Part shown: one piece after another, positions 6,504 to 31,612 of the stretch
Layout of the letters: each line of letters begins with the position of its first letter
Numbering within the stretch: the stretch's first letter is position 1
Assembly: GCA_028692715.1 (NCBI GenBank)
Contig: JAQUWU010000030.1
Coordinates: 1-62,482 of the forward strand
DNA: 62,482 nt
Direction: 5' to 3'
Source: Paludibacter sp.
GTDB taxonomy: Bacteria > Bacteroidota > Bacteroidia > Bacteroidales > Paludibacteraceae
Translations under genes and position numbers: made by a program
Notes under the pieces: model-generated
What the model saw: only the letters and a program-made list of their open reading frames with translations
Told to the model about the DNA's origin: nothing
Databases searched by the model: none

Positions 6504-6517
6504 GTGAACAATTATTG

Positions 6518-6556: not shown

Positions 6557-6656
6557 GATTGATTAATAATGGTACATTTTGCCTTTCAAAATTTTTATTT
6601 CCCTGTACATTTAGATGTTCAAGTCTCTAACTTGATTCGTTATAAATCTGACAATA

Positions 6657-10045: not shown

Positions 10046-10050
10046 AGTAT

Positions 10051-10977: not shown

Positions 10978-12746
10978 CTTTCACCAAGTGCAGCCTTAGC
11001 TGCCTCCTTCATAACTTGCTTTTCTTTATAAGTCAATTCAACTCCAAATCCTTTGTGAAAACTAAGTGCAGCTTGCTCTACTAGCATATTAATCCCTCTA
11101 CAGATTTGATTCTTATTGCTTACTAATTGTAATAATTGTGTCTCATACGGATTATAGACCATCTCTGCTACGCAAGCACTTTTGGCGAGCTCTCTTATTA
11201 ACTTTTTTGAAAAAACTAATTCATTTTCATGCCCTACCATTCCGCATGGAGTTGCATTTACCAACAAATCAATATTCTTAAGTATTTTTTCCAGTTGATT
11301 GTAAGTCACTTTTGATATTAAATGATTCCCTATTAATTGATCATACTTATCCAATAGATTATCTAAATTATCTTCATTAATATCATAAATGAAAATTTTT
11401 TTAACTCCACTTTTAAGTAAATAGAATGGAAGAGTCATACTCCCACCACCGGCTCCTAATATCAAGACAGAAGCATCCTCTAACTTTATCTTTTTAGTAA
11501 CTGCTTTTACCAGCCCTTCCCCATCTGTATTGTAGCCTTTTAGTATTCCATTATCTAAAATGATAGTATTTATTACGCCAAAATCACTTATTTTTATCTC
11601 CACAGAATTACATCGATCAAAAATTAAATGTTTCCAGGGCATTGCAATATTTGCCCCTACTAATTTATTATCTAGTATCATTTTATTTAGTTTATCCATT
11701 ACAGGCTGTGGTTCATCTTCACTGATAATGAAGTAATTTATAGGAAATTTCAAATAATCAAACAACGCATTCCACATAAATGGAGCTACACTGTACTCTT
11801 TAATTCTTGCCCCCCCTATAAGGCCCCAGTTGAATATTCCCAATCGTTTAATTATATTTCTGACTGTATCAACACCTTGTTTCACGTTTTGTTGTACAAT
11901 TATACTGCAATGTAAACTTTTAATCATATCACTTGCATATGGTGTAGCATCGCAATAAATCAAATAATTATAGATTGCGCCAATACAGTGAATAGAAATA
12001 TTAGATTGATTTTCACAAGTCCATTTTATTAATGCTTCTTCATTATTTTCAATAAAAAGCAAACGACTAAATTGAAAATTGCTTTCAAATTTTTCTTCAA
12101 CTTCTTTAGATGTAAGTTCTAACAAAATCAAAAAAGTGTTATTATAAACTTTATTGTTTAATTGATTATCAGAGTGAGAAATATTAGGTGAATATGTCTG
12201 TCCTGTTCTATAAATAGCTTTTACATCCTCTATTCCTACAGACAACTCTTCAAGTATAGAATGAGATAAATACTTGTATAAAGCAACTTGTCTTTCTTCT
12301 ACAAATTGTTTGTCAAGATATCCAGAAAACCCAGAAACATTTCCATTCATATTCTCTTTGACTCCAAAAACTAACTTATTGTCAGTTGTGAGAACTAAGC
12401 ATAATGAAGATAATGCTGTGATATGATTAGCCGATACATAACAAGCATACTTCTCGAATTCCTTAGTTCTCCCAAATGCCTGTACATACCTAAATTTACT
12501 CATAAATACATAGTCAGTTTTCCGAATTTCGTCATACCCTGCAAAAAAATAGGTTCCTTTATCTTTTGCTACATCAGGGTTTTTTAATGAAAAATTTTCC
12601 CAATTCTCATTAACTTCCTTTTCAATTTCTTCGGGTAATACTATTTCCTCATCGAGAACTTCTATTTTATAAGAACTACTTTTTTTATTAATCCTCTGTT
12701 TCAAACCACACTCTAAAATATATATGCATCTTTTATCTTTTTGCAT
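10974..12746 (-). CDS. Nudix-like domain fused to shikimate dehydrogenase
   Basis: A 590-residue protein, about twice the length of a usual AroE. Residues from about 315 form a shikimate/quinate dehydrogenase: WGLIGGARIKEYSVAPFMWN (substrate site, S.SP-like), GANIAMPWKH (where AroE usually has GxNVTxPxK), GYNTDGEGLVKAV and a cofactor loop VLILGAGGGS, then NATPCGMVG. The catalytic Lys of the MPWKH motif is present. Residues 1 to about 290 are not AroE; a stretch GFSGYLDKQF...SILEELSVGIEDV recalls a degenerate Nudix box, so this may be a sensing or nucleotide-binding domain. The combination with a DegT aminotransferase suggests handling of a shikimate-like or aminoshikimate-like compound. The SDH call is firm; the N-terminal call is tentative. 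Confidence 0.82.
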   Translation of the reverse strand: MQKDKRCIYILECGLKQRINKKSSSYKIEVLDEEIVLPEEIEKEVNENWENFSLKNPDVAKDKGTYFFAGYDEIRKTDYVFMSKFRYVQAFGRTKEFEKYACYVSANHITALSSLCLVLTTDNKLVFGVKENMNGNVSGFSGYLDKQFVEERQVALYKYLSHSILEELSVGIEDVKAIYRTGQTYSPNISHSDNQLNNKVYNNTFLILLELTSKEVEEKFESNFQFSRLLFIENNEEALIKWTCENQSNISIHCIGAIYNYLIYCDATPYASDMIKSLHCSIIVQQNVKQGVDTVRNIIKRLGIFNWGLIGGARIKEYSVAPFMWNALFDYLKFPINYFIISEDEPQPVMDKLNKMILDNKLVGANIAMPWKHLIFDRCNSVEIKISDFGVINTIILDNGILKGYNTDGEGLVKAVTKKIKLEDASVLILGAGGGSMTLPFYLLKSGVKKIFIYDINEDNLDNLLDKYDQLIGNHLISKVTYNQLEKILKNIDLLVNATPCGMVGHENELVFSKKLIRELAKSACVAEMVYNPYETQLLQLVSNKNQICRGINMLVEQAALSFHKGFGVELTYKEKQVMKEAAKAALGER

Positions 12747-12781
12747 TTCTCACCCCAGCCATTCGTATTTCTAAAATACTC

Positions 12782-13513
12782 TTACTCTATTATTCTAAAA
12801 TACTCCTTAATAATTTGTTTGCTTTCCTCTGAAAATTCATCCCATTTTCTTATTGATTTAAAAACATCCATACGCGGGTTATCTTTCTTAATATCTATAA
12901 AACAGTTCGAATAATTTTTTATTAATTGGTTGTGTAATTGACTGATTTCTTGATTCACTATGATTTCAAACTTAGGCGCATGTAAAAACTTATTATATAA
13001 TACACCAGGATATAGGAAACTGCCATAGTACAAAAATTTAGGTAATTTATAAACATTTAATTCTTGTATACAAAATTTGGGTTTGTTATAAATATGCTTT
13101 TCTCCATAAAAATTGTAATAATCATTAGTTGGCTTTTCTTCAGCATCAGTCATTTTATTCAGGAGCTCTGACATACCATTAGGTATGCTATTAGAAAGTT
13201 TTTCAAAATATTCTATACTAATAAAGTCCATAGAGATCGCAATGCCATTAAGTTTAAATTTAGTTGCAAACAAATCTATTTTTTGATCATTTAATGCTTT
13301 AAGAGCTTCGATATAGAGATTATATTTTACGAAATTAAGACTCTCTATTTTTTCAATATCATCATAGATGATAACACAATCTAAATCATCACAATCTTCA
13401 TAAGAAAAATTATCTTTATATGCCACTGAACCTACTATCACTAAGTTCAATTTTTTTTCACAACAAATCTTTCTTAAACTATCTAATACAAAATTCAATG
13501 CAATTATATCCAT
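12782..13513 (-). CDS. Pol beta-type nucleotidyltransferase
   Basis: A 243-residue protein started at ATG 13513 (GAGGGA upstream; the longer frame begins with TTG). NLVIVGSVAYKDNFSYED followed by DDLDCVII fits the nucleotidyltransferase GS...DxD catalytic motif, and ISMDFIS can supply the third acidic residue. Such proteins move a nucleoside monophosphate onto sugars, aminoglycosides, proteins or RNA. The C-terminal half (KFCIQELNVYKLPKFLYY) is not recognised. It lies between the sugar dehydrogenase and the Nudix-SDH gene (35-base gap), which points to nucleotide activation of a small molecule. A role as a toxin cannot be excluded, but no HEPN antitoxin partner sits beside it. Confidence 0.72.
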   Translation of the reverse strand: MDIIALNFVLDSLRKICCEKKLNLVIVGSVAYKDNFSYEDCDDLDCVIIYDDIEKIESLNFVKYNLYIEALKALNDQKIDLFATKFKLNGIAISMDFISIEYFEKLSNSIPNGMSELLNKMTDAEEKPTNDYYNFYGEKHIYNKPKFCIQELNVYKLPKFLYYGSFLYPGVLYNKFLHAPKFEIIVNQEISQLHNQLIKNYSNCFIDIKKDNPRMDVFKSIRKWDEFSEESKQIIKEYFRIIE

Positions 13514-13614
13514 ATCATCCCTCAAATTATGCTCATTGTATTATTTTAGAAAATTATATTCACTACTATCTCAATTTAATAAAACTTTGTATCCGTATCA
13601 TACTGGCTCAATTA

Positions 13615-14907
13615 TTATCGCCCAATTGAATAATACTGAACATTGAATTGATCTGCACTTTCTTTGTTATAGCAATTACGACCGTCAAAAATGATTGGAG
13701 TTTTCATTAATTTTTTGTATTGTTCAAAACTTAACTTGGTTATTTCTTCCCATTCCGTAAAAATGAATACCAATTCAGCATCTTTAATAGCATGCTCCAT
13801 TATGTTAGTACACTTTATTTTATCACCAAACAACTTTATGATATTTTCTAAACCAACCGGATCATAGATGTGTAAGTTTGCACCATTTTCTAGCAAATAA
13901 GTTATATTAGGTATAGATGGAGCCTCTCTTATATCATCAGTACCCGGTTTATAAGTCACTCCTAAAATTGCTATTTTTTTATTTCTAAAACAACCAATAA
14001 CCTCTGTTGCTTTCATTACTAACTTCATTTTTTGTTTTTCATTCACTTCAATTGCAGCCTTAACTGTTTTTAACTCATAATTATGATCGCAAGCTAACCA
14101 ACGAAGTGCTTTTGTGTCTTTTGGAAAACACGAGCCACCGTAACCAACACCAGCTTTTAAAAATTTGCTACCAATACGTTCATCGTAACTCATGCCGACT
14201 GCAACGTCCTCAATATTTGCACCAACAATTTCACACAAATTTGCAATATCATTCATAAAAGAAATTTTTAATGCTAAGAAATCATTAGATGCATATTTTA
14301 TCATTTCTGCACTTTTTCTATCTGTAACAACAATTGGTCTGTTAAATGGTTCATACATTTTTCTTAATATTTTTTCTGACCCAACACTATTAACGCCTAT
14401 AACAATCCTCGCAGCATTAAAAGTGTCACTTACTGCTGTTCCCTGCGCTAAAAACTCAGGGTTAGAAGCTACCTCGATTTTTACATTATATTTCAAATTT
14501 TTATTAATCAATTTTTCAACATTATCACTTGTTCCAACTGGAACTGTTGACTTTAAAACAACCAAAACGTCTTTTTTAACATTTTCTGCGATTTGAACAA
14601 CTACTGAATTTAGAAACTCTAAGTTTGCAGATCCATCACAGTTTTCTGGTGTGCCAATTGCTATTACAATAACCTCAGCTAATTCAAAACAATTTTTATG
14701 ATTAGTGCTGAACTCAATCATTTTTCGTTTAATGTTTTTTTTCAATAGTAAACCCAGATCTTTTTCATATATAGGACACTCACTAGTGTTTAACAACTTT
14801 ATCTTATTTTCATCTGTATCTACACAGTAAACTTTATGACCAACTTCAGACAAACTTACTCCTGTTACAAGCCCTACATATCCTACTCCAACTATACAAA
14901 TATTCAT
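13615..14907 (-). CDS. ugd: UDP-glucose/nucleotide-sugar 6-dehydrogenase
   Basis: A 430-residue dehydrogenase started at the ATG at 14907, with GGTAGGA before it. MNICIVGVGYVGLVTGVSLS is the NAD-binding GxGYVG signature. NPEFLAQGTAV has the conserved Glu, GVGYGGSCFPKDTKAL carries the catalytic Cys, and LGVTYKPGTDDIREAPS marks the C-terminal UDP-binding domain. It performs two-step NAD-dependent oxidation of UDP-glucose (or a similar sugar nucleotide) to the uronic acid. It is the first gene of the biosynthetic operon as read on the minus strand. Length and motifs are normal. The exact sugar is not determined; UDP-glucose is the commonest substrate of this branch. Confidence 0.92.
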   Translation of the reverse strand: MNICIVGVGYVGLVTGVSLSEVGHKVYCVDTDENKIKLLNTSECPIYEKDLGLLLKKNIKRKMIEFSTNHKNCFELAEVIVIAIGTPENCDGSANLEFLNSVVVQIAENVKKDVLVVLKSTVPVGTSDNVEKLINKNLKYNVKIEVASNPEFLAQGTAVSDTFNAARIVIGVNSVGSEKILRKMYEPFNRPIVVTDRKSAEMIKYASNDFLALKISFMNDIANLCEIVGANIEDVAVGMSYDERIGSKFLKAGVGYGGSCFPKDTKALRWLACDHNYELKTVKAAIEVNEKQKMKLVMKATEVIGCFRNKKIAILGVTYKPGTDDIREAPSIPNITYLLENGANLHIYDPVGLENIIKLFGDKIKCTNIMEHAIKDAELVFIFTEWEEITKLSFEQYKKLMKTPIIFDGRNCYNKESADQFNVQYYSIGR

Positions 14908-15105
14908 ATTTTTTCCTACCATATCACATTTAAGACAAACTGAATTATTTATGTTATCAGTAAGTCAGTGCTCATTTTAAAATTATTATGTTCCTCAGTA
15001 AAACTCAGAACTCCTTAATAATTGCTATGTGGTTTTTAAAGTAATATTGGCTATTTCGACAGATAAAGTTAATCAAAAGAGAAGAGATACACCAACGCTT
15101 GACTA

Positions 15106-15696
15106 TCACATTATATCTCCTGATATAAACAACTCAGTACTTTGAGATATATTGATCTCAACTCTTTTTTCTCTGACTTTATGAAACCAATCCTCGTATT
15201 TGTTGTATCTATCTGTTATCAAATGGATTCTCTGATTTTTCGAGCCAATAAGATTCCTAGTATTGTCTATTTGCTGTTCATCAAATTTTCCATCAACAAT
15301 TAAGTCAACACTTTCAACCATTTCCTTATCCAAATATTCTACAGTTCTTCCTGTAAATAGAATTGTCCCAAACCCGTTATTTGCCATTATTTTAGCTAAC
15401 ACACATAGTCCTTCCTGCAAAGTGGGTTCTCCACCAAGGAAAGTAACCCCTTCAATTCCGTATAATTTTTGCGACTCTAATGCAATATCAACAATTTCTT
15501 GAACAGTCATAATATGCGCAATAACAATCGGTTGTAACTCGGGATTACAACAACCTTCACATAATATATTACAGCCCTGGAACCATATAGCCATACGCTT
15601 AAATGGTCCCTCTGCCTCGGTACACATATTAATGTGTGCAACATTCAACTTCTTACTCAAATCTAAAGGCAAGCCCTTCTTGTTTAGTTCCGACAC
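15106..15696 (-). CDS. NrdG-like radical SAM activating enzyme
   Basis: A 196-residue protein of the small radical SAM activase type. AIWFQGCNILCEGCCNPEL holds CxxxCxxC followed by the N/P seen in anaerobic ribonucleotide reductase activase NrdG, and VTFLGGEPTLQEG has the SAM-binding GGEP motif. FTGRTVEYL and VDLIVDGKFDEQQ follow the NrdG/PflA fold. The GTG start at 15696 lies within the end of the ClpB-like gene (44-base overlap). It is the last gene of the five-gene operon. Classical partners would be glycyl radical enzymes, but no glycyl radical protein with an RVxGY-type C-terminus is encoded in the window. It therefore probably modifies or activates a partner in its own operon. Family is certain; substrate is unknown. 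Confidence 0.85.
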   Translation of the reverse strand: MSELNKKGLPLDLSKKLNVAHINMCTEAEGPFKRMAIWFQGCNILCEGCCNPELQPIVIAHIMTVQEIVDIALESQKLYGIEGVTFLGGEPTLQEGLCVLAKIMANNGFGTILFTGRTVEYLDKEMVESVDLIVDGKFDEQQIDNTRNLIGSKNQRIHLITDRYNKYEDWFHKVREKRVEINISQSTELFISGDIM

Positions 15697-17494
15697 AAAT
15701 TTTACTTCCTCTCAAAGATACCAAATCTTCTTTATTCTTGAATAAAAACATTGCTAAATCATCAAGCAAACGGTCATTCAAAGCATTTAGTATATCTCGT
15801 CCACCTTTACTCTTGTCTGCATCACCGATTACATAATTGATAAATGCAAGTTCATCATCAAATTTAAGTTCCATGTGATACTTTTCTTCTATTCCCTTTT
15901 TGATAGGCTTGAGCTTTGACTGAGCGATCTTTAATCTAAAATCATCATCTTGGATAAAATTGAAAGGTACAATATTGCTATAACCAATTCTACCAAGTAA
16001 CTCAGGTCTTTTAATTTCTTTATTAAAATACTCCTTTACGATCTTAATAAATTCACTTGCCACATTATCAAAATCAGGTTTAACTTCACTCGCTCCCAAA
16101 TTAGAAGTAAAAATTATTACACTTTCACTGAAATAAACAGTTTCTCCCTTACTATCTGTAAGACGACCATCTTCAAGAATTTGAAGGAAAATATCAAGAA
16201 TTCTCGGATTATGTTTAGCAGCTTTTTCAATTTCATCAAAGAGAATAACACTGAATGGTTTCTCTTTAATAGCATTTGTAAGTTGTCCGCCTTCTTCATA
16301 CCCTACATATCCCGGAGGCGCTCCTATAAGCTTCTGATCCGAATTTTCTTGTGCATATTCACTCATGTCAAAACGTATACAAGCATCATCATCTCCAAAT
16401 AAAAACTTAGCCAATGCCTTGGAAAGTTCTGTTTTACCAACACCCGTTGGTCCAACGAAGAATAAAACACCTTTCGGCATAGAGCGGCTTGAAGTTTTAT
16501 GTATGCCTGTCATCCCCATATATGCCTTTACAACAACTTTTTCAATTTTTTCAATCGCTTCTTCTTGTCCAATTACTCTCTCGCCCAGTTTACTCTTTAT
16601 GTTTTTAACTTCAGAATATGCGAGTTTTTCCCAAGGATTGTCCTTTTCACCGTATTTGAATAGGAGAAACAACTTATCAAAAGTCATTTTATCTTCTTTT
16701 CTTGAAAGTCTTGCCAACTGTATCAATTCTCTATTGGTAAAATCATTCAGCATATCTATATACTCATTGATTTTTTCACATCCCATTAAATCTTTTCCCT
16801 TTTCTGTTATTACATTAAAGGAATAAGATATTTTTCTCATCATAGCTTCACGTTCTTCACGATCAGGTTTAGGTAATGTCATTGTACTTACTTCAGGATT
16901 TCCTTGATAAAACGCAACCGGAAACATTGCCAATTTATTTGTGATTAAGATAATTGTACTTTCGTTCACATCTGTCGAATTATAATCTGGCATTTTTTCC
17001 CGAATCGCTTTACCTAAAATAGTAAGTTGCTCTCTTTCATCTGGTGGCAACTGAGAACCGGAAAACATAAAATCTGCCCAATTCAAAATAAATGCAACCT
17101 TTTTATTTTTATTCAGCAAATTCTTCATTACAATACTAAGCATTTCCTTCATATCAGTTGTATCAATCGAAGTAGATTTGTTCCCATTTGTATTTGCAGA
17201 CGAAGATCCTAATATATCAGCTAATTCCTCATCCTGTAAATAGGCGTCCCCTTCTACATTAACATCTTCAACAAGTTCCAAACTTCCAATATCATCCTTT
17301 GTACCGTCTACCTTATCCCAACAAATTACATTATCATAATTCATGTTTGTTAACACTTGTTTGATATAGGTTTTCAAATCTATGACTTGACCTTTTTCAT
17401 TAAGATACACATCACCAACATTACCATCAATAATGATACATCGTTTAATACCTATTTCTCTTTTTAAACGATTAAATGCATTATCAATTGCCAT
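15653..17494 (-). CDS. ClpB/ClpA-like AAA+ unfoldase, one active and one degenerate ATPase domain
   Basis: A 613-residue protein (ATG at 17494, GGGGTG upstream). Residues from about 315 match the second AAA+ domain of ClpB: VIGQEEAIEKI, FFVGPTGVGKTELSKAL (Walker A, about 346), the pore loop GYVGYEEGG, VILFDEIEKAAKH (Walker B, about 416), a sensor-1 Asn in IIFTSNLG, RPELLGRI (arginine finger) and GGRDI (sensor 2). The first 290 residues look like a decayed AAA+ domain: IIIDGNVGDVY instead of a P-loop, FILNWADF instead of DE, then IILITNKL. The Clp N-domain and the ClpB middle domain are absent. It should form an ATP-driven ring that remodels proteins, probably its operon partners. Confidence 0.87.
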   Translation of the reverse strand: MAIDNAFNRLKREIGIKRCIIIDGNVGDVYLNEKGQVIDLKTYIKQVLTNMNYDNVICWDKVDGTKDDIGSLELVEDVNVEGDAYLQDEELADILGSSSANTNGNKSTSIDTTDMKEMLSIVMKNLLNKNKKVAFILNWADFMFSGSQLPPDEREQLTILGKAIREKMPDYNSTDVNESTIILITNKLAMFPVAFYQGNPEVSTMTLPKPDREEREAMMRKISYSFNVITEKGKDLMGCEKINEYIDMLNDFTNRELIQLARLSRKEDKMTFDKLFLLFKYGEKDNPWEKLAYSEVKNIKSKLGERVIGQEEAIEKIEKVVVKAYMGMTGIHKTSSRSMPKGVLFFVGPTGVGKTELSKALAKFLFGDDDACIRFDMSEYAQENSDQKLIGAPPGYVGYEEGGQLTNAIKEKPFSVILFDEIEKAAKHNPRILDIFLQILEDGRLTDSKGETVYFSESVIIFTSNLGASEVKPDFDNVASEFIKIVKEYFNKEIKRPELLGRIGYSNIVPFNFIQDDDFRLKIAQSKLKPIKKGIEEKYHMELKFDDELAFINYVIGDADKSKGGRDILNALNDRLLDDLAMFLFKNKEDLVSLRGSKICVGTKQEGLAFRFE

Positions 17495-17499
17495 CCTTA

Positions 17500-18615
17500 T
17501 CACCCCTTATTCTTGTTATAATCAATTGTTTGATATTTCATTGTTGAATTTTTATCCGGGTTGCTCCAAATTTCAGTCTGTTTTAGGACCTTTATTCCGT
17601 ACACTTCTTCTAACTCATCCATAAATGGTTTAATGTCCTTTTGACACGCCTGACCTTCATATCCGTCAAATCGATACTCAAATTTTCCGTCTAAAAATAC
17701 TTTGAACTCTGCTTTTGCTCCGCTTGGTTTTTGCGCTACAATATTGACCTGATTGTTCTCTCGATCGATTTTTATTGATTTCCCATCAACAAGAAATCCT
17801 CTTTTTTTAATGGCTTGAACAATAATCTTCACACTTTCGCATCTAACCTTCTCATTGACAATTTCTTCATTAGCCAGTTCTCGCGCCTTTTGAACTCTTT
17901 CCTTAGCTGTTCCATAATCATGACTTACGATCTTTTCTATTATCTTTTCGTCAATCTTTTCATTCCTGAGTTCAATTTTGATTTCTTCTATTTTCTTTTC
18001 TTCAACCGCTACATATTGTTGATTATCAGCTGAAACTTTCATCTTCATCCCAATAGAACACAATGAATCATAAGATGCATTTGGATTATCCACCCATGCC
18101 AAATAAACGTACTGTCTTGTAACTTCGTCTACAATTGTATTGATTTTCTCTTGTACATCATAATTTATTCTAATTTTCCCACTTGCTAAATCCTTAAGTT
18201 TATCTTGGTAAGCAGCTAGTTTACTATTCATTAATTGATTCAGCAGAGCTTCCATCTCGACCAATTTGGTGTCGGTTAATCTCGCAACCATCATTTCCAG
18301 TTCTTCTGCCTCTTTAATAACTTCATATGCATTCGCATGAGTACCCATATGATCCGAATCAACAACTACGCTCCCCAGGCTTGCCTTATTCCTCGCTTTG
18401 CTTAAGACAGAATCGATTTTATTTTGAAGCTCTTTCTTTGTCTTAGTAATTTCTTTCCTCAAAGCATCAGTTTGTGAATTAAGAAGTCTTGTTGATCCAC
18501 TCTCTATTTCATCAAGCATTTGATCCAGCTTGCAAAGTTGGCTGTTGGCCATTTCGCAGACACTCTGACATTGAATTGAAATTCCCTGATAGTCAATTCT
18601 CACTGCATGACTCAT
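17500..18615 (-). CDS. Coiled-coil protein of the helicase-HEPN-AAA operon
   Basis: A 371-residue protein that I do not recognise. GGAGG eight bases before ATG 18615 supports the start, which lies inside the end of the HEPN-like gene. Residues about 20-170 form long helices (DQMLDEIESGSTRLLNSQ, ITKTKKELQNKIDSVL, AEELEMMVARLTDTKLVEME), likely coiled coil. A second helical block is near 210-270. The last 100 residues seem globular (SIKIDRENNQVNIVAQK, then FKVFLDGKFEYRFDGYEGQ). There is no transmembrane segment and no known catalytic motif. It could be an adaptor or substrate for the ClpB-like ring encoded next (four-base overlap). Confidence 0.7.
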   Translation of the reverse strand: MSHAVRIDYQGISIQCQSVCEMANSQLCKLDQMLDEIESGSTRLLNSQTDALRKEITKTKKELQNKIDSVLSKARNKASLGSVVVDSDHMGTHANAYEVIKEAEELEMMVARLTDTKLVEMEALLNQLMNSKLAAYQDKLKDLASGKIRINYDVQEKINTIVDEVTRQYVYLAWVDNPNASYDSLCSIGMKMKVSADNQQYVAVEEKKIEEIKIELRNEKIDEKIIEKIVSHDYGTAKERVQKARELANEEIVNEKVRCESVKIIVQAIKKRGFLVDGKSIKIDRENNQVNIVAQKPSGAKAEFKVFLDGKFEYRFDGYEGQACQKDIKPFMDELEEVYGIKVLKQTEIWSNPDKNSTMKYQTIDYNKNKG

Positions 18616-20809
18616 GATCCATTCCTCCTAATTTTTCTACTATTTCGCACCATCCTTTTATAATCCGCTCAGAATACTTGTTACTTCTCTTTACTGTTGG
18701 ATGTTGAAACTCATTTCTACATTTTCTCAAATCATGCATCTCACGTAATTCAACTTCACTCAAGTATCGAGTTATGCCATCATCAGATAGCAAATCATAC
18801 GTTTGCGCATTATGTGTTCCAAATAGGCGATTAAGCTCATATTGGAGTCTTATGTGCAAATCACAAATCGCATCTTTATAGCGTGATTTTTTTAACATTT
18901 GATTAATATAGTTTTTGTCAATATGGCTTGGATTCTTTAAAGCTTCCATTTCAATACCAACGATCTCTCTAATATCTGCATATCTTTCATGAAAAGCCAA
19001 CAACGCATTAAATTGTTCTACTGCATACAGTTTATACTTTTCTAATTTTTTAAGAGTATCATCATATGTAGCCAGAACCTGAATAAACCTACCTGCATCA
19101 ATATCTAACTCAGCCGCGTCCTCAGTAACCTCTGAAATACCAGTTAGTTCCTTCAACTCAGATAGAGCTTGTCCAAGCAAAGCACACTGCCTTCCCAACT
19201 TGCTTTGACTCGATATTGTCTCACCATTCAGCACACTTACACAATAAGTATTGAATATATTGATAACTCCTAACACACTTTCAGTATTATCATTCAAGCT
19301 TTCCATAGCTTCATATGCGATTTCATCACCCTCTGTCAGAATAAGATTTCGCGCGATTAAGCTTAAATACTCCAAATCATTCTTTTTCAAGATCTTATTT
19401 AGGCTCTCGCCTAATGAATTTTTCTCGCCAAAATTGTCAATCGTAACCTGAGCACAAAGATCATTAAGTAAATCTTGTGCCTGGCTTATTGCAATCTCAC
19501 TCCACCATTTTTCTTTAGCAAACTGATTATTCAACTTAAGGAAAATATCAATCTGATCCTCGGTATTTTTCTGCTTTTTTACCAACGAGAATGTGAATTG
19601 TTCTGCGTAATCCTTACAACAGGATATTTCCGTGAGTTTTTTAATTACATTGCATCTCTTTATTGGTTCTTCGGTTTCAATACATTTAAGAAACACTCCT
19701 CTCAATACTTGAGTTGCATGTTCATCCGACATATATTGCGTGATTATTAAATTAATCTGACACTTACTTTGAAATCCTTCTAACTCCACTCCAAAATTGC
19801 CTGGAATAATTTTATAAAGCTTACCATTTTCAAAATAGCATGCATATCCTTCAATTCCACCTTGTTCAAATATCTCTAAAACTTCATTTTTATCTATCAC
19901 GCACTCACTATTTTTCATTACAATGCCAGTGCTCAATGACAGCTGATTTTTAACAGCCAACATATTGAGCAATTGTGAAGGCATTGTGATTTGTTCAACA
20001 TTACACACCTCTGAATAATCATATCTTGGAATCTTCGACAAAACTCCATCAGGAAAATGATACTTTTTCTTTGCCCCAATGATGTTCGATATTACATCAA
20101 CTGCGTAATTTTCTTTTATATAAGAATTTCTTGCCTTATCATGCGCTGATAAATACATTTTCTCATTATCAATTTGAACTACAACAGCATCCTCAAGCTT
20201 ATATGCTAAAGCTTCTGGGGTTTCATGTTCATACCCTGCGATTGCTTCACCTTTTCTAAAACCATATCTATTCATGTTTTCAGAAATAAATAATTCCACA
20301 TCGTCATTGTTTAGTTGTGCTTTGCCAATACAGCTTTCGTCAATTGATGAGTTGTCATACCGAAACAACCTATAATTAGGCTTCACCAAGATATCCTTAG
20401 TAGCTAAATCATAGTATACATTTAGTTTCTTAATGCTATTGTTTCCTGTTGGAATGGTTCCTTCAGCAAATAATCTTTTACCTAGCTCCGTAACCTCAAA
20501 ATCGGAAATGTAGTACATATCCAATAAACTGAGGCTAAATTCGCGGTTCGCTTTCATCGTAACGATTCTTAGGTCAATCATGTTGGCAAGCTCCCCACCA
20601 AAAATATAATGAATGTCGTACGGAACACCAAGATTCTTAAGCGTTACAACTAATTTTTCTTCAATATATTCAGATTCTCTAATTAGTTCTATTAATATAT
20701 ATACAATTCCAGATGCTTTTCTTACCTCCACATACGATGTGTTTGCAACATATTGAATTATTGGAAAAGACCATGCTGTTTCAAAGTTTATGAAATACTT
20801 ATTTTCCAT
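18593..20809 (-). CDS. Large protein with C-terminal HEPN-like RNase motif
   Basis: A 738-residue protein of unknown overall family, overlapping the helicase gene by 11 bases and the coiled-coil gene by 23. The final 130 residues are helical and contain LREMHDLRKCRNEFQHP; R698-N-E-F-Q-H703 fits the RxxxxH motif of HEPN ribonucleases, with a preceding acidic helix. This is the arrangement found in abortive-infection and toxin HEPN proteins. The rest (residues 1 to about 560) has no motif I know; it begins MENKYFINFETAWSFPIIQY and holds mixed alpha/beta segments such as VELFISENMNRYGFRKG. It is a good candidate for the effector of the operon, kept inactive until signalled. HEPN activity is an inference from a short motif; a non-catalytic HEPN fold is possible. 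Confidence 0.65.
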   Translation of the reverse strand: MENKYFINFETAWSFPIIQYVANTSYVEVRKASGIVYILIELIRESEYIEEKLVVTLKNLGVPYDIHYIFGGELANMIDLRIVTMKANREFSLSLLDMYYISDFEVTELGKRLFAEGTIPTGNNSIKKLNVYYDLATKDILVKPNYRLFRYDNSSIDESCIGKAQLNNDDVELFISENMNRYGFRKGEAIAGYEHETPEALAYKLEDAVVVQIDNEKMYLSAHDKARNSYIKENYAVDVISNIIGAKKKYHFPDGVLSKIPRYDYSEVCNVEQITMPSQLLNMLAVKNQLSLSTGIVMKNSECVIDKNEVLEIFEQGGIEGYACYFENGKLYKIIPGNFGVELEGFQSKCQINLIITQYMSDEHATQVLRGVFLKCIETEEPIKRCNVIKKLTEISCCKDYAEQFTFSLVKKQKNTEDQIDIFLKLNNQFAKEKWWSEIAISQAQDLLNDLCAQVTIDNFGEKNSLGESLNKILKKNDLEYLSLIARNLILTEGDEIAYEAMESLNDNTESVLGVINIFNTYCVSVLNGETISSQSKLGRQCALLGQALSELKELTGISEVTEDAAELDIDAGRFIQVLATYDDTLKKLEKYKLYAVEQFNALLAFHERYADIREIVGIEMEALKNPSHIDKNYINQMLKKSRYKDAICDLHIRLQYELNRLFGTHNAQTYDLLSDDGITRYLSEVELREMHDLRKCRNEFQHPTVKRSNKYSERIIKGWCEIVEKLGGMDHESCSEN

Positions 20810-23800
20810 TCTTTTTCACCTCTCCAATAAAATCAGAAGCTTGCAATATCTTACCCTTTGCCTGAATAGTACGAATGATCTCCTTATATACAGGGAAAGA
20901 ATTTCTATCAAGTTCCTTCCTGCCGTTTATGTCAGGCAAATCAATGCTGCTTCTACTTAAAAACTCCTGTGAGCCCACAATCACCAGCATGCATCTTGCT
21001 CTAGAAAGCGCAACATTAATTCTCTCAAATTGGTCTATAAACTCGGTGCTATATCTGTCTCCTCTCGGATTTCTGACCATTGATACAAGAATGATATCTC
21101 TTTCATCCCCTTGAAAATCATCAACGGTATTAATTATGAGTCTTTCCTCCCTTCTGGAAGACACATTTGGATACTTCATTCCTTTTATATTGTTCTTTAT
21201 ATGACGAGCCTGATCACGATAGGTGCAAATAACACCTATGCTCTTTCTTTCATCCTTCTTAGCATCTTTTCTGATTTCGCCGGACTCTATCATGTTTCCA
21301 TACTGATCATTGATCAGCTTGAGCAATTTGCTTATAACATCTGCTTCCTGTTTATTTATTTTTGAAGAAGATTCACTATCTAAAGACGACTCATACTCTG
21401 TACAGTTTACAAAGTATATATGATTGTGCGGCTCAATCAGAGTGATTCCATTGGATTTAATCAATAAATTATGCTGTTTAAGATCATTTTGGTTACTCAG
21501 CCCTACAGTCAATCCTTTTCCATTAGCACTATAGAAATGATTAAAGACATCCATAATATTACTATGACAACGATACTGCTTATCAAGCATGATTCGATAA
21601 GAATCAGGAACTTTTTCAAAAAGTTCTTTGAAGAAACAAGTTTCATACAACTTCTGATAGTGTTGATTCAAATCATAGTCAATTATTTCTGGATTAAGTC
21701 CCTCGAAATCGCCCTTTCTCATATGTTTCAAATCATATAAAGGTGGCAACTGCCGATGATCTCCAACTAAAATAACTGTCTTACCGTATAGCACCGGAAT
21801 TAACAAGTCAAGGAACGACGATTTACTAACTTCATCAATAATCACAACATCTATCCCAACATTTCTTACATTAATATTTCCAAGTTTATACTCTCTTAAA
21901 GACTGCATTGAAGACTCGCTATAATATTCTCTACTTGTACAAGTCATTCCAAAAACATTAGCTTTGTCGAATAATTTCTTTGTATAGCTAACTCTATCCT
22001 CTTCGAGTATTTCTTTATCATCAAGATAGTTTCGGATGACTTTATACATCGGAATTTTTGATTTGTTTTCCTTTTCTAAAGCATCTTGATTCTTTTCGAT
22101 GTCACGCCAACGCCTATTGATGATTTCTATTGCGGTCGCTAAATCATCTGCTGGATACTCATCATAAATATCAAAGTCCACAAAAAACTCAACGATCGCT
22201 GTTCTAAGTTCCAGTTGTTTCTTTCTATAATCCAAATATGAATCATTTTCATTTAGCTGTTCAATCCTCAATACTTTATTATTCTTATTAATCTTTATTC
22301 CCGAAATTTCATCATCAACAACAGCTTTTCTCTTGGTAAGTTTGTCTACCAAGTCATTAATTTCCATTTTCTTTTCAAAAATATGCTTATCCATTTTTGA
22401 TTTTATTTCAACTAGCTCCTGCAGAACATTGTCTCTTTGTACACTACCAGAAAGCTTATCTGCTGAAATAAGCGTGGCAATCGTAAGAGTTGAATAGTCT
22501 ATGTCGCTTTCTGCATCCTTTGCATTTTTCAATGATATAAGTTGTTTTCTTAATCGTTCATACTCCTCTTCCTTGCCTTCAAATATCTCGTCAGTATCAG
22601 GGTCTCTCAACGCGTTAATTTTTGAGCGTATACTTGATTTTTCTTGTTCAACACTCATTGAAGCACTATTGTCTTCAATTGTCTTAAACTCATTCCTCAC
22701 TTGATCCAAATCAAGACGATAGATTCGACTAACCTTTTCTGCGTCAACATCAATGATAATATTATATTGTGAAATAAGCTCATAAAAATACTTACCTACT
22801 TCAAACAACACATCTCCCTTATCGATTTCTTCTTCAAATTTACCTTGATCCAAGTATGAAATCAGAATCTCATACTGCTCCTTCTCATCTTCCAATGGTC
22901 TTTTTGAATTCCGTTTAATCTCTACCTCATGATCAAGAACAGTAACTTCTCTCTGAAGATTTTCTTTCTCTATTTGTACAGCACGGCAACTCTTTTCCAA
23001 TTCTAACAACTGATTATGTCTGAATCTCAATTCACTCATATTCTCACTGAAATTGTTCTTCATCTCTGTGAAATTCTCATATTGCTGAATTCGTTTATCC
23101 AATCGACTGGAAATGCTTAGATAAAGATTATCTACCAATTTCTCAGGGCTGTACTCAGTTTCCTTATTTGACATTGACGGGACGAGTCTTAAAGGACGAA
23201 TCTCAGGTATTTTGGGCAATCTCTCAAATACATTGTCTATTGCTTTATGCGTCTCACTTGATACAAGAACCTTTTTCCCCTGTTTTACAAACTGTGCAGT
23301 TATTTCGGCTATCACCTCAGTCTTTCCTGTTCCAGGAGGTCCCTGTAATAAAAATATACTGTTGCTTGCAAGTGCTCTTCTAACAGCTTCCTTTTGACTA
23401 TCGTTTAGCCTGTTTCCAAACCATTCAATCTCGGTAGAATTAGTCTCAGACCTTCCAAGTGTTTCAGGCACAAAAAAGTATGAAGCAAGAAATGGATTCT
23501 TTACATATCCATGATAGAAAGCGTAGATTGCCTTCTCCTGTCTCTCAATCTTTTTCTTTTCAGCTCTATTGTCATAGATTAAAAACTTGTACTTCATGCT
23601 CGAATCTTTACTATCAACATCTTCAGCCTTAAAATAAATATAGAAATGTCTTTGAGTCAATTTTTGATTCTTTTTATCAATTTCTTTTGCTTTATCCTTA
23701 TCTATTTGTTCCTTACATGCTTTCTTTTCCTCTTCAATTACAGATGCCAGCTGAGCCTTGAGGAGTCTCTCTTTTTCATGGCATAATGCCTCAAGATCTT

Positions 23801-25676
23801 TGGATTTTTGCAATCTTTGGCTCTTCTCAAAATCCATCTTAAGTTTTTCATTTCTATCGAAGTACCATTGTGAAAGAGGGATATTAGCAATCTCATCCTC
23901 TTCTGACAAAATCAGTTTATCCATTTCATGAAGAAATTGCTGTTTAACCTCTTCTATGTCATTATTCTTCTTTTTGTTATTTTTTTTCAGTTGCAACTTT
24001 TGTTTGTCGTACTTCGCTTTAATTTCTTTTACTCTTGCAGAATACCTTTTTGCAATATTCTTATCTGTATTATTCTCAACATCCGCTGCATAATTGTGAT
24101 CCAATGACGCAAAATACTCATCAATTATTTTCTGCATTTGATCTTCAAGACGCTTATCTTCATTTTTTCTGTATTCAGATATTACTTCCTTAATGATGCC
24201 TCTGTACTTCTCTTCTACAAAAGAATTATTTCTGCTTAGCTTCTCCTCAAAAAAACTAATAATATCATCACAATTTGGCGCTATGTCAATTGCTTCAAAA
24301 GCAACTCGATCACCTAAATACAAAAAAAATTCATTATTTCCGACGGACACATTATTACACGGATTGTTTTGTGATAGCGCGACTTGTGTTCTACTAAATC
24401 TCCTTAACTCTCTTTCATAATTGCTTATCTTCTTATCTCTTGCCAAGGATTTATTTATCTCAGCAAGATTTTTGCTTATTTCAACCTTAATCAATGGAAA
24501 TACTGCGGAGCCTTCTGTATCTTCGTCTAAAAGGACATAATCCTTCTGAATAAAATTCTTGTTCCCATCAAGCAAATGATTAACGTAAGTTTCTTCATTC
24601 TTTCTATATTCAGTTCTGCTAATAGAATAGGCATTTATGTAACAAACATTATTAATGTGTTCATTTCGCTGCGATTGAACATCTAAAAAATACTTTCTAA
24701 AATCGACATACTTTTTCCATTCTTCAAAAACAGCTATAGCTTTCTCTGGATTATCAATTGGATATACATTTTTGCACAATAATAAAACCGTATCTCTTGT
24801 AAGAAATGGCTTATACAAATCTCTACTATCCAGACCATAGTCAGGAAGATTTCTGTCATTTTTCGTAATAGCGCACGCTGCTGCACTCTCTATTCTTAAT
24901 TCTCCAAACTTTTCAACATTCTCATCTATAAGATCTAAACCCTTAACAACAAAAGAAATGATGTTGTTTTTAAAAACAAGATCACCTACAAGTACAACAT
25001 CTAGCTCCTTTGGTAAAACCGATGATACAATTCCACTCTTCTCGGGTCGAATTACCATGTTGTATATACATTCAAAAGTTTGGCCATATTGTGAGAATGT
25101 TTCTATAGCCCTCTCAAAACTGGGCAAAGACACGTAATATGCACTTTTTATTAACGGAAAACACAGACTAACAAACTTACTTAAATCAGTAATGTCATTT
25201 TTTCCGTGAAGTACCAATTTACGTCGTACTTTTTCAAATTGGTCCTCAAGAGGTTCAAGGTAGACATCATTTCTATTTCTACTTCCCGACTTTAAATACT
25301 GTGTAAAATCTATGTACAAATATTCAACACCACTTTTTTGGCTTTGGCGGTCAAATTCTCTTTGAGAATATTCAATATCATTTCGAATTTCTCGTTTTTC
25401 AAAATTGGCGTTCTCATAATCATCCCATAAAGAATCCGCATCCTGCTGAACTCCTTCTGATTCAAATATTTCATCTGCCGATGAGACATTATCATTATGA
25501 TAATCCTCATCATCGTCATCATCAACTGAATTATCATAGTTTGGTGTATATGATGATGTATCATCATTAATACTATTTATTAAAGCTGCAATACCTGCGC
25601 CTACTATTCCAACACCTACTACTCCAACACCTACTACTCCTGCAATAATTTTTGCTATATTTTTCTCATCTGCCAT
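20799..25676 (-). CDS. Giant membrane-anchored SF1 (UPF1/DNA2-like) helicase
   Basis: A 1625-residue protein; AAGGAG eight bases before ATG 25676 decides the start. Residues about 8-32 are a Gly/Val-rich hydrophobic stretch (IIAGVVGVGVVGVG...), probably one membrane segment, followed by an acidic run (DDDDDEDY). Residues about 450-720 are unrecognised and partly coiled coil. The helicase core has LLQGPPGTGKTEVIAE (Walker A, about 777), a long helical insertion, DVVIIDEVSKS (about 1275), VGDHRQLPP, LDKQYRCHSNI, NTVDDFQGDERDI and RINVALSRARC (about 1549), which are all SF1 motifs in UPF1/DNA2 style. This group usually moves 5' to 3' on RNA or DNA. It leads the five-gene operon and is a plausible nucleic-acid sensor. 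Confidence 0.88.
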   Translation of the reverse strand: MADEKNIAKIIAGVVGVGVVGVGIVGAGIAALINSINDDTSSYTPNYDNSVDDDDDEDYHNDNVSSADEIFESEGVQQDADSLWDDYENANFEKREIRNDIEYSQREFDRQSQKSGVEYLYIDFTQYLKSGSRNRNDVYLEPLEDQFEKVRRKLVLHGKNDITDLSKFVSLCFPLIKSAYYVSLPSFERAIETFSQYGQTFECIYNMVIRPEKSGIVSSVLPKELDVVLVGDLVFKNNIISFVVKGLDLIDENVEKFGELRIESAAACAITKNDRNLPDYGLDSRDLYKPFLTRDTVLLLCKNVYPIDNPEKAIAVFEEWKKYVDFRKYFLDVQSQRNEHINNVCYINAYSISRTEYRKNEETYVNHLLDGNKNFIQKDYVLLDEDTEGSAVFPLIKVEISKNLAEINKSLARDKKISNYERELRRFSRTQVALSQNNPCNNVSVGNNEFFLYLGDRVAFEAIDIAPNCDDIISFFEEKLSRNNSFVEEKYRGIIKEVISEYRKNEDKRLEDQMQKIIDEYFASLDHNYAADVENNTDKNIAKRYSARVKEIKAKYDKQKLQLKKNNKKKNNDIEEVKQQFLHEMDKLILSEEDEIANIPLSQWYFDRNEKLKMDFEKSQRLQKSKDLEALCHEKERLLKAQLASVIEEEKKACKEQIDKDKAKEIDKKNQKLTQRHFYIYFKAEDVDSKDSSMKYKFLIYDNRAEKKKIERQEKAIYAFYHGYVKNPFLASYFFVPETLGRSETNSTEIEWFGNRLNDSQKEAVRRALASNSIFLLQGPPGTGKTEVIAEITAQFVKQGKKVLVSSETHKAIDNVFERLPKIPEIRPLRLVPSMSNKETEYSPEKLVDNLYLSISSRLDKRIQQYENFTEMKNNFSENMSELRFRHNQLLELEKSCRAVQIEKENLQREVTVLDHEVEIKRNSKRPLEDEKEQYEILISYLDQGKFEEEIDKGDVLFEVGKYFYELISQYNIIIDVDAEKVSRIYRLDLDQVRNEFKTIEDNSASMSVEQEKSSIRSKINALRDPDTDEIFEGKEEEYERLRKQLISLKNAKDAESDIDYSTLTIATLISADKLSGSVQRDNVLQELVEIKSKMDKHIFEKKMEINDLVDKLTKRKAVVDDEISGIKINKNNKVLRIEQLNENDSYLDYRKKQLELRTAIVEFFVDFDIYDEYPADDLATAIEIINRRWRDIEKNQDALEKENKSKIPMYKVIRNYLDDKEILEEDRVSYTKKLFDKANVFGMTCTSREYYSESSMQSLREYKLGNINVRNVGIDVVIIDEVSKSSFLDLLIPVLYGKTVILVGDHRQLPPLYDLKHMRKGDFEGLNPEIIDYDLNQHYQKLYETCFFKELFEKVPDSYRIMLDKQYRCHSNIMDVFNHFYSANGKGLTVGLSNQNDLKQHNLLIKSNGITLIEPHNHIYFVNCTEYESSLDSESSSKINKQEADVISKLLKLINDQYGNMIESGEIRKDAKKDERKSIGVICTYRDQARHIKNNIKGMKYPNVSSRREERLIINTVDDFQGDERDIILVSMVRNPRGDRYSTEFIDQFERINVALSRARCMLVIVGSQEFLSRSSIDLPDINGRKELDRNSFPVYKEIIRTIQAKGKILQASDFIGEVKKNGK

Positions 25677-25819
25677 ATCTTTTTCTCCTTGATAATAAAT
25701 TATAACGTTCACGCTTACAGCTTCATTAAATCAAGTATATCAAACCGTATGTACTATATAACGGACACTGAACAACCATCTCCCAAATCTCATTTGGTAA
25801 TGCGACCAATAGTAATTCT

Positions 25820-27832: not shown

Positions 27833-30800
27833 CTACATGAACTTTTTAAGGGCTTCTGGGCTATTATAATTCACCTTGCATTGATTATATACTGTACTTA
27901 TAGACTGCCTCCTATGGTATGCAATATTTTCATACTGCCATATTAACAATATCTTTATTGCCTTTTCTATTATGGATAAGCTATTGTCAGTATAAATTTT
28001 ATAATACTCTAGTTCAATTCCCTTATCATCCTTCTTCTTATTTAAATCAAATTCTTTATGGTATTTTCTAATATAGCTTATAAGTTCTTCCACGATTGAC
28101 TTATCATTATAATCCTTAAAAAAAACTTTTATCTTAGCGTTTCTTTCGCTCCAATCCTGTATTACCCAATCATCAGTAATCCCAATTAAACTTAGCTTGT
28201 ATATAGCTGTTTCTAAATCTTGTTTGCTAAGGCCAACTCGATTACCCAATGCCAGCTGACTAGCCTTTGGTTTTGCGTATGTTTTATAGAATGATAAAAT
28301 CCCTTTAAATTCTTCCTCGGTATCTTTTACGCTGGCTAACCAAAGGAACATATTATCCATAGCGTCTCTTCCTTCAAATTTAATCTCTTTCTGAGCTTCT
28401 TTGATATCTAAGACACTACTCTTTACACCAAATAATTTATCAAAATACTTTTCAGCTATATATTCTTCAGAAAAAAGGATATAGCATTTTGCAGGTTTTT
28501 TATCACGACCTGCTCTTCCTCCTTCTTGATACAGTGACTCTACTGATCCAGGGATTCCATGATGAATGGTATATCTCACATTGCTTTTATCTATCCCCAT
28601 GCCAAATGCTTTAGTTGCAACTAATAAAGGAAATTTATTGTCCTGAAAGTCACCTTGAACCTTATCTTTGTAATTATTAAAGTCAGCTTCTTTCATTATA
28701 GGCATATTTTTATTATGTGGACATGAACCGGAGTACCATTTGGCATCAACTTTAAATTCATTAGTCAAATGGTTTGCTAACATGTAACAGCCGGAGGTAC
28801 CTTTATTAACAAACCTTGTAAATATCAAACCAGACTTTGTATCCTCTCCATTTAACTCAAAAATCTTTTCCTGCTCATTCAAAGTCCTTAAGAGCTTCAC
28901 AAGTTCTTCATCTTTCTGCTTCGAATTAGAACCATTGTCTTTTATCACCTTAAAAGTTAGTTCAGGCCTTGTAAATGAAGGCAAAGTCTTTACATTTTCT
29001 TTGTTTATTTCAAATTCTATTAATATGTCTTTTAAAACATTTATTGATGCTGTTGCCGTCAAAGCCAGTATCTGTGCTTTTTTACAGTACTTCCTTATAG
29101 TCTTTGCAAGATTTAGATAAGACGTTCTGAAATCATGTCCCCACTCACTTAGGCAATGAACTTCATCGATAACAGCCATTCCGATTACATGTTTATCGTT
29201 TACATTTTGAAGTTGCTGTCTAAAAGCTTCTGTTTGAAACCTCTCAGGAGAAATCCATACAAACTGATATTTACCGCTTGCAAATTCGATTTGAATCTTT
29301 TCTTTTTCCCCAGCTTCTTGATTACTGTTTATATAATTTGAATTGGTTATATACCTCTTGTCTAAATTATCTCTTTGATCTTTCATCAATGACTTAATAG
29401 GAGTAACAATAAAGTTAATACAAGGTTGCAATAAGGCTACATACTGATAAATTAATGATTTGCCCCCTCCGGTTGGTAACAATCCAACAGTGTCTTCCCC
29501 CTTGAGGGCATTTGTTATAACTGAAAGTTGCCCTGGATTAAAAGTATCAAATCCAAAAATATTCTTTAAGACAAACTCTAATGCTGAAGTATCTGAATTT
29601 TCACCATCACTAATGATGTTATATTTTATAGGTTTATAGGTGCTCACTGTGAAATAATTATATCTGTCAAAATAATCTGTTCGCACATAAATTCTATTTT
29701 CCTCGCCATCAACCTCATTTTCATCTGTCCATCTTTTTAATAAACTAAAATCTATATTAATGAAGTCTTTATGAAACTTTGATTTATTTGCATCATAAAT
29801 TTTTAATGCTACCTTAGGCTGTTTAAAATTCAATTTGTGCAACTTTGATAAATGCTTTATCCACAAAAACAAATCTTCTAAAGCTAATTTTTCAAATTCC
29901 TTTATATCTCTTTCTACAACACTTATCTTCCATTCTTTATCATCAAGGCTCAATTTACCTTTTTCCAATAGAGCTAAAATAAGTATTTGAAACCTAATAA
30001 TCGCGGTGGACTTTAAGATTATGTCATATTTTTGTAAATCTATTTTTTGATTAACAAATGCTTTTTTATAATCATATAAAACGCCGCTAAACTTTCTTAA
30101 ATGTTCCTCAATCTCTTTCATTTTTCCTTTTAATATATTTGTTTCTTTTCTAATATCTTGAGTATCTATTCTTATAGTTTTTATTCCATACTTCTGAAGA
30201 TACTCAACTCTCTCATTATCATTTAGCCTATTCAAATCATTAAGCTTATGCGGCTGCCCATCAACTTCAATTACGAGTTTGGCTTGAGGTAGGTAGAAAT
30301 CAACTTGTTGTTTTGCAAAGTCCTGATTAGGCTCTAAAGTAATTTCATCAAATGTTACCTCAGGTAAAATAAGCTGCTGAATAAATTGATATTCGGAAAG
30401 ATACTTAGGAATAATATCTTCAAAGAAAGTAATAGCGGGATAGTCGTTATTTAAATCATCACCCTTTATGGTATTAAGCCATATAGGAGTATCTCTTGAT
30501 ATTAAAGTATACGCCTCTTCAAACTCAGGAGTTTTATGTATAGCTCCTAGTTTTTCTTGAAGATAGGCTGATAGTAATGTTGGACATCCACGCATTAAAA
30601 TATTTTTCATTATACATATTATCGGAAAGTACGGATTACTTATATTTTTATCACCCTTATTATTTTGAATAACAAAGTTATGATTTGTATACGCATAATT
30701 CGCACTATACTTTTCAACATTTTTCGATGCATACAAATACATATCTTTAGACCTATTACTTAATTTTATCATTGAAGTTGATTTATATTTTTCAACTTCC

Positions 30801-31234: not shown

Positions 31235-31612
31235 GTTCAACCCCCACAAAAATTCATTATTTCTTCCCCTGTAACAATGCATTTAATGTACACGCTTATC
31301 AAGCTCACAGTTCAGAAATTTTAGTTATGAGCTCCTTTCTTGAATTAGGCTGCATCTGATGCTTTGTAAAGCACGACCCACAGGGCAACCTAGTTTAAGC
31401 AGTTCAGTCCGCTTCTGCGTACACCAAAGACACTTGCAGTTATGCAACAACAGTAATATCACACAACAAAAAAACACAAACTCTGTTCTTTGATTTATAA
31501 ATATAAAAAGATGTTCTGGCTAGTAAACTAACATTAGCTCTCACTATTTTTTAATAAAATTTTAACATATTTTGTAACTAATTTCCACACTATTCGTCAC
31601 ATTGTTAATTTT
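31235..31612. other. Gene-free promoter region of the RecQ-like operon
   Basis: About 380 bases, very A/T-rich towards 31500-31610. I see no gene or clear repeat. It should hold the promoter of the RecQ-like operon, because the next complete minus-strand gene upstream is more than 2 kb away across remnants and terminators. Confidence 0.4.

Follow-up and report, generated by a model that had tools for sequence, protein, structure and literature searches.

What does a run of five overlapping genes, all on one strand, do for the DNA that carries it? The question is raised by a 62,482-nucleotide stretch from Paludibacter sp. (contig JAQUWU010000030.1; "the window" always means this whole stretch), where an operon at positions 15106 to 25676 encodes a large helicase, a HEPN-like protein, a putative adaptor, an Hsp100-type ATPase, and a small radical S-adenosylmethionine (SAM) enzyme. 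Judging from sequence comparisons, we lean towards reading it as a conflict system that spreads horizontally and acts on RNA, directed most likely against phages or plasmids, with the division of labour proposed below. It is probably an undescribed defence system, because the unit is portable, found in distant bacteria and on plasmids, and its RNase-like part has been exchanged while the rest stayed constant.

The five genes are:

20799..25676 (from ATG) or 20799-25712 (from GTG), minus strand: gene 1, large Upf1/Dna2-like superfamily 1 (SF1) helicase (AAA_11, AAA_12)
18593..20809, minus strand: gene 2, effector-slot protein with a HEPN-like C-terminus (by relatives' profiles: DUF4145 in locus L008; PIN_4 in the same slot on five plasmids)
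17500..18615, minus strand: gene 3, helical/coiled-coil adaptor with a conserved C-terminal domain (AlphaFold2 model, ten-sequence conservation)
15653..17503, minus strand: gene 4, Hsp100-type AAA+ ATPase (AAA_2 2.1e-49; ClpC/ClpB D2 in PDB)
15106..15696, minus strand: gene 5, small radical SAM enzyme of the NrdG/pyruvate formate-lyase (PFL) activase type (Fer4_12 1.4e-24, Radical_SAM 1.8e-9)

All five open reading frames (ORFs) are intact and tightly packed, with no internal stop in any frame. An earlier note, written from the letters of the window, had claimed overlaps of 11, 23, about 4, and about 40 bases; measured from helicase to radical SAM gene they are 11, 23, 4, and 44 nt. Matches in Pfam, NCBIfam, and PADLOC cover genes 1, 4, and 5; genes 2 and 3 of the window have no significant family match in any of the three. 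Here and below, the PADLOC 2.0.0 protein models were scanned with the window's five proteins, selected relatives' helicases, the kinase of locus L030, and neighbour genes.

Is the operon one unit, and where is it found?

Ten distinct five-gene loci were compared: the window, four contigs drawn from genomes of Bacteroidota or from a metagenome (L008, L009, L015, L029), and five proteobacterial plasmids (L050-L054) whose carriers span alpha-, beta-, and gammaproteobacteria. In all ten of these opened gene-3 loci the genes run helicase, gene 2, gene 3, AAA+, radical SAM, which supports the earlier claim of a single unit. Intergenic spacing runs from -44 to +61 nt over the ten loci (-23 to +61 nt in the nine relatives), and each locus keeps the four helicase motifs, the AAA+ Walker A and Walker B motifs, and the CxxxCxxC and GGEP motifs of the radical SAM enzyme.

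Rare overall, the unit lies mostly in mobile settings. An alignment search with gene 3 found it in three of 358 genomes of the family (its own, G059, and G748). Gene 2, searched against 149 related genomes, gave its own genome, G059, and one weak partial match (G076); gene 3, searched against 395 genomes of the class, gave its own genome and one weak match (G507), and both weak matches were excluded from the member count. The AAA+ N-domain was found in four of 393 genomes of the order (its own, G106, G1118, and G116), and the radical SAM alignment, at E <= 1e-25 among 296 genomes of the phylum, in its own genome alone. A scan of genome contigs returned a single locus, L008, letter-identical to a G059 contig titled Prevotellaceae.

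Among 72,556 plasmid records, gene 3 was found in ten: six from Moellerella and one each from Acinetobacter, Leisingera, Photobacterium, and Polaromonas. Five of these were opened as L050-L054, and the five further Moellerella records were left out of the ten-locus set. Gene 2 had no match among the plasmids, neither gene 2 nor gene 3 had one among 50,697 phage records, and E. coli genomes gave none by megablast, a method sensitive to close DNA only. Scans of viral contigs returned one operon-bearing contig and one phage NrdG. The latter (L014) was set aside as not a system member, since by reading it lies beside other phage ORFs; its gene is surrounded by several homing-endonuclease-like ORFs within 325-8275, again by reading. 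The opened loci lie mostly in mobile or defence-type surroundings, five of them on plasmids.

Which part is exchanged?

The exchanged part is the C-terminus of gene 2, and this effector swap is the strongest of the findings. Two features of the gene matter here:

20132..20809, minus strand: N-terminal domain, residues 1-226, common to the HEPN- and PIN-type proteins (hhalign)
18701..18718, minus strand: R-N-x3-H motif, R698-H703, candidate HEPN active site, kept in three of five HEPN-type members

The C-terminus is HEPN-like in five loci (the window, L008, L009, L015, L029), and on the five plasmids it is PIN_4, above the cut-off in every one, with four PIN acidic residues (D654, E683, D733, D754) invariant. 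When the HEPN-type and PIN-type profiles are compared (hhalign probability 94.7, E 5.9e-8), the sole reported alignment is N-terminal and covers about 220 residues only (window residues 2-226); this shared domain has no Pfam match. In three trees the PIN-type loci group together (AAA+ 99/99, radical SAM 96/96, helicase 100/100), and the HEPN-type loci do so in the helicase tree, with no resolution in the AAA+ and radical SAM trees. The shared N-terminus, the differing C-termini, and the grouping of the PIN-type loci lead us to conclude that one RNase-type domain replaced another behind a retained N-terminal domain. Such an exchange marks weapon versus launcher and makes the arming of the weapon testable.

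The earlier note had called gene 2 HEPN-like. Support for the label comes through relatives only, chiefly L008, whose gene 2 scores 25.9 bits against DUF4145 (cut-off 23.1; the single DUF4145 match in that genome); the window protein itself has no profile match. HEPN_Apea matched one of four members (0.0042). A passage in PMC3710099 counts DUF4145 among the HEPN families and has most of its members retain Rx4-6H; RN-x3-H (Rx4H) is present in the window, L008, and L009. A low-confidence AlphaFold2 model (mean predicted local distance difference test [pLDDT] score 62) predicts mostly helix across residues 632-728, with R698 close to the end of helix 685-701. A fold search placed the HEPN protein 2hsb at rank 41 with probability 0.51, the highest among the 50 rows listed; we do not rely on it. 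In its two types, gene 2 resembles HEPN (DUF4145, ApeA-type) and PIN_4 RNases in its C-terminal domain and differs from them in adding an N-terminal domain of its own and in being tied to four other genes. In L029 (gene 2 at 8114-11407) the protein carries an extra C-terminal Ppx/GppA phosphatase domain.

Which parts stay constant?

The helicase is the first of them:

23319..23342, minus strand: Walker A motif GPPGTGKT, residues 791-798 (GTG numbering)
25578..25634, minus strand: Gly/Val-rich hydrophobic stretch near the N-terminus, window-specific (19-mer hydropathy 2.39)

The ATG at 25676 is preceded by a Shine-Dalgarno sequence, which makes it a better start than the upstream GTG at 25712. 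The best PDB relatives are DNA2, SMUBP2, SEN1, and UPF1, and the Walker A, DEVS, QLPP, and NVAxSR motifs are present in all ten homologues. The suggestion that the helicase is a membrane-anchored sensor did not hold: the remaining nine helicases reach a maximum hydropathy of 1.18 within their first 150 residues, so that an anchor is confined to the window (one of ten) and is rejected as a feature of the system.

Among the PADLOC models, the closest is the helicase half of MkoA from Mokosh (window 4.7e-85, L029 1.2e-92, L015 5.8e-93; these three of the ten helicases were covered). Mokosh pairs a helicase with a Ser/Thr kinase domain or a PLD domain, whereas genes 1-5 of the window have no Pfam kinase or PLD domain, and the five-gene unit includes no kinase gene. 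Mokosh is not known to have an Hsp100, adaptor, or radical SAM gene. PLD and NERD are discussed in PMC10952713. Upstream of the L029 operon there is a separate, weakly PLD-like gene.

Gene 4 is the Hsp100-type ATPase:

16619..17503, minus strand: N-domain without Walker A, residues 1-295
16430..16453, minus strand: Walker A motif GPTGVGKT, residues 351-358, present in all ten five-gene loci

Its second half is a ClpB/ClpC D2-type domain, and to that extent the earlier description as ClpB-like was right. The description can be refined, as the protein has one canonical ATPase domain only: GxxxxGK[ST] is missing from the first 290 residues in 13/13 gene-4 homologues, and the score against the ClpB equivalog is 246 bits versus a cut-off of 1232.1. 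ClpP docks on Hsp100 rings through a loop of the pattern [LIV]G[FL]. This pattern is missing past residue 400 in eight of the ten loci (L008 has LGL and L054 has VGF), which fits remodelling better than proteolysis, weakly. GRIGY in the AAA+ protein was weighed as a glycyl-type site and given up, as the Leisingera and kinase-type members have NRIG or NRFG and the aligned ClpC has NRI.

In gene 3 one short invariant element is of interest:

17635..17661, minus strand: Y319-x-G321-x-x-C324-x-x-D327 motif, candidate radical SAM target, invariant in 10/10

Gene 3 had been described as a coiled-coil. Long helices are indeed predicted (AlphaFold2, low confidence, mean pLDDT 66), together with a C-terminal unit of four strands and a helix; what is conserved, by contrast, is this C-terminal domain. 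Among ten sequences, 1 of 250 N-terminal residues is invariant versus 17 of 121 C-terminal ones, the set including Y319, G321, C324, D327, and W350-x-N-P-D354. A fold search put human spermine synthase first (E 0.059, probability 1.00, template modelling score 0.17-0.18), a match on which we do not rely.

A relation of gene 3 to DUF2997 is suggested, not proven. The likeness lies in the sequence around Y-x-G-x-x-C, and Pfam gives DUF2997 at E 0.18 for one of four gene-3 members. This stretch is the best DUF2997-like site in the window's genome (E 0.246) and the sole one in an IMG/VR record (5e-4) and the Acinetobacter plasmid (6.8e-4), in each case below the family cut-off, which gene 3 never exceeds. 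Gene 3 has no such match in G059 (where the single match is on another contig), in G748, or on the four other plasmids. In Synechocystis, according to one passage of PMC4284462, ycf35 (DUF1257) and a ferredoxin gene are neighbours of a DUF2997 gene, which may offer a loose parallel to the iron-sulphur enzyme encoded in this operon.

That enzyme is gene 5, with its cluster-binding motif:

15550..15573, minus strand: CxxxCxxC, C42, C46, C49, present in 12/12 radical SAM proteins compared

The earlier identification as an NrdG-like radical SAM enzyme was correct in type. A four-sequence profile finds PFL-activating enzyme (PFL-AE) in PDB at 5.3e-10, and a profile match to a phage NrdG reaches 98.4%. 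The NCBIfam NrdG score (2.1e-21, 76.4 bits) is nevertheless below the equivalog cut-off of 126.1, and the five genes include no NrdD or glycyl radical enzyme, in which they differ from NrdG and PFL activase despite the shared small size and CxxxCxxC. Because the conserved part of gene 3 is a C-terminal domain with an invariant element, the adaptor is most plausibly the member that the enzyme modifies. Conservation and operon linkage leave, as the most economical idea, a stable modification at or adjoining G321/C324.

Is the AAA+/radical SAM pair used elsewhere?

An AAA+ gene of the gene-4 kind directly adjoins a radical SAM gene in two kinase-FHA-PP2C operons. In L030 (5782-13377) the order is kinase, coiled-coil protein, AAA+, radical SAM, FHA, PP2C; on an Aristaeella lactis plasmid (L055, 4585-11613) it is kinase, FHA, radical SAM, AAA+, PP2C, with a DUF4011 protein adjoining. 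The pair may thus be a reusable module. For the L030 kinase, the top PADLOC match is the kinase part of MkoA (2e-20), and PD-T4-6 kinases are as good (4.4e-20). The coiled-coil or unknown protein beside the AAA+ gene in the kinase-type operons was tried as a gene-3 homologue and rejected (hhalign 0.7%, 1.5%, 0.3%).

Other AAA+ relatives stand apart from the pair. L031 has AAA+ and FHA only, and a Geminocystis plasmid (L056) has, by annotation, the AAA+ relative without the other genes. Ten distant AAA+ matches were found in the phylum, and in the six neighbourhoods opened none had a helicase, gene-3, or radical SAM gene as a clear partner. In L044, a 335-residue ORF matched the helicase profile (2.5e-4) and the gene-3 profile (0.0097) weakly and reads as a membrane-fusion-type coiled-coil protein; in L046, a response-regulator-like ORF matched the radical SAM profile weakly (0.0086).

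Further pairings of these gene kinds were also seen. On the Acinetobacter plasmid (L051, 14214-15718) the operon is followed directly downstream by a second pair of ATPase and radical SAM genes, L053 has two radical SAM genes upstream of the operon, and the window has a further ATPase and radical SAM gene pair at 6657-8862.

How might the system work, and is it new?

We propose the following division of labour. The helicase would detect or expose foreign RNA or DNA; RNA appears the more likely target because there are two RNase-type outputs. The N-terminal domain of gene 2 would dock the RNase on a common machine. The radical SAM enzyme would modify the adaptor at C324/G321 or close beside them and so mature it, and the complex would be unarmed without this step. 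The matured adaptor would couple the RNase to the Hsp100 ring, which, through the adaptor, may hold the RNase until ATP-driven remodelling releases or activates it. The released RNase would then stop phage growth through RNA decay or dormancy.

A wider idea, possible but doubtful as we see it, is that bacterial conflict systems reuse the Hsp100-adaptor core, matured by the radical SAM enzyme, as an arming device that is general across outputs. A stable radical-based modification would be placed at the adaptor's Y-x-G-x-x-C-x-x-D, and the AAA+/radical SAM pair would be plugged either into HEPN or PIN RNases with an MkoA-like helicase or into kinase-FHA-PP2C signalling. If true, the core would represent a class of defence that depends on post-translational radical modification. 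The main reading finds support in the FtsH ternary vWA-MoxR systems: a section of PMC7159879 proposes that a radical SAM enzyme modifies a peptide effector in this other AAA+ conflict system. Those systems are, by contrast, FtsH and vWA based, and no helicase-RNase-Hsp100 set was seen in that section.

As for novelty, PADLOC assigns matches to the window's helicase (MkoA), its AAA+ domain (PDC-M37B, DolB), and, weakly, its radical SAM enzyme (pVip), and nothing to genes 2 and 3. In the PMC full texts searched we found no system with the five-gene set and no matching defence set with a radical SAM, NrdG, or glycyl-radical protein; a description elsewhere is possible. Within these PADLOC scans and this literature, the earlier claim that no recognised system matches is upheld. 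The parts are separately of known kinds, and the combination, with the shared AAA+/radical SAM pair, is under no system found. If the operon is a defence system, it adds a machine in which an RNA-targeting pair of helicase and RNase is constantly accompanied by an Hsp100 ring and a radical SAM enzyme. It also becomes a lead to possible roles for DUF2997-like domains and for activase-type radical SAM proteins that lack a glycyl radical partner.

What else could the operon be?

Several observations weigh against a conflict system with a HEPN-type output. The C-terminal fragment of the window's gene 2 matches nothing in Pfam even with the limit relaxed to E 10, and the gene-2 fold search is weak, with nothing at E <= 0.001. 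A search for DUF4145 was negative in the window's genome and in the L009 record, and the match in G748 is a neighbouring gene. The candidate active site reads [RK]x6H in two of the five HEPN-type members (Rx6H in L015, with K replacing R in L029). Warnings attach to the trees, in which the L052 branch is long, the letter make-up is uneven, and, for the helicase, long branches meet. Finally, six of seven scanned neighbour genes of L008, L009, and L015 have no PADLOC match, the exception being a DUF2971 gene. A stress-response or RNA-repair and quality-control operon, handling damaged host RNA-protein complexes with no primary defence role, would be well served by a Upf1-like helicase, an RNase, and a disaggregase-type ATPase, and both the kinase-FHA-PP2C cousins and the Ppx/GppA domain in L029 speak for it. 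We consider it unlikely, as the unit is patchily present (3/358 family genomes, its own included, and 10/72,556 plasmids) and its mobile settings and RNase swap suit conflict systems better. Very unlikely, in our judgement, is a maintenance or addiction module of mobile elements in which gene 2 is a toxin restrained by the AAA+/adaptor complex. PIN is a common toxin domain, HEPN is described as one in PMC3710099, and five of the ten loci are on plasmids; even so, ten kb and five genes are large for addiction, and the intact helicase would be left without explanation.

Two further alternatives concern gene 5. It might make a small antiviral molecule in the manner of viperin, with the remaining genes as a separate effector arm; the pVip profiles in PADLOC match weakly (2e-6). 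This seems highly improbable to us, for NCBIfam viperin gives 18.4 bits against a cut-off of 180, the NrdG and PFL-AE profiles fit far better, and gene 5 adjoins the AAA+ gene in all 12 compared loci having it, the two kinase-type operons included, although AAA+ relatives without gene 5 exist. Alternatively, gene 5 might install a stable glycyl radical on gene 3, making it a small radical enzyme or switch. NrdG and PFL-AE are its nearest relatives, and RFDGYEG in the window's gene 3 resembles RxxGY, the glycyl site of glycyl radical enzymes. The idea looked promising in three sequences and failed on the fourth: position 318 reads G, G, G, E, E, Q, N, H, N, R in the ten homologues, and we rejected G318 as the site because Gly is present in only three of ten. 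Moreover, some of the plasmid hosts (Acinetobacter, Polaromonas, and Leisingera) are aerobes, in which a glycyl radical would be short-lived. We regard it as the least probable account of all.

What surrounds the operon?

We return to the setting of the putative defence operon in the window. On one side lie a pair of large serine recombinases (730-4072) and a sugar or small-molecule gene cluster that adjoins the operon. This cluster (6657-14922) includes an AAA ATPase, a second radical SAM protein, a DegT aminotransferase, RmlD-like and shikimate dehydrogenase-like genes, and, by reading, a UDP-sugar dehydrogenase-like gene. On the other side comes a DpdF-like helicase gene and then a BREX island with Gabija-like and HEC-02 genes. 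The BREX neighbour had been predicted correctly; the gene at 27833-31282, taken for part of a RecQ-nuclease operon, encodes a DEAD/Helicase_C protein with DUF559, its best PADLOC match being DpdF.

Shine-Dalgarno 5-mers precede 11 of 29 long ORFs in the window versus 0 of 11 in one 20-kb sample from another contig of the same genome; because usage differs between the contigs, the window's contig may be a foreign island or mis-binned. In two relatives the surroundings were also noted: recombinase-like ORFs lie upstream in L009 (by reading), and the DUF2971 gene (PADLOC PDC-S31) lies with a DUF4145 gene upstream of the operon in L015 (17133-18868).

Within the BREX operon of the window, GajB-like and GajA-like genes (43642-46387) lie between PglX and a DUF2130 gene, and a HEC-02A/B pair (38696-40245) lies between PglX and PglZ. 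The island also holds an IstB-like IS21 gene (32375-33013) and a group II intron maturase gene (54556-56370).

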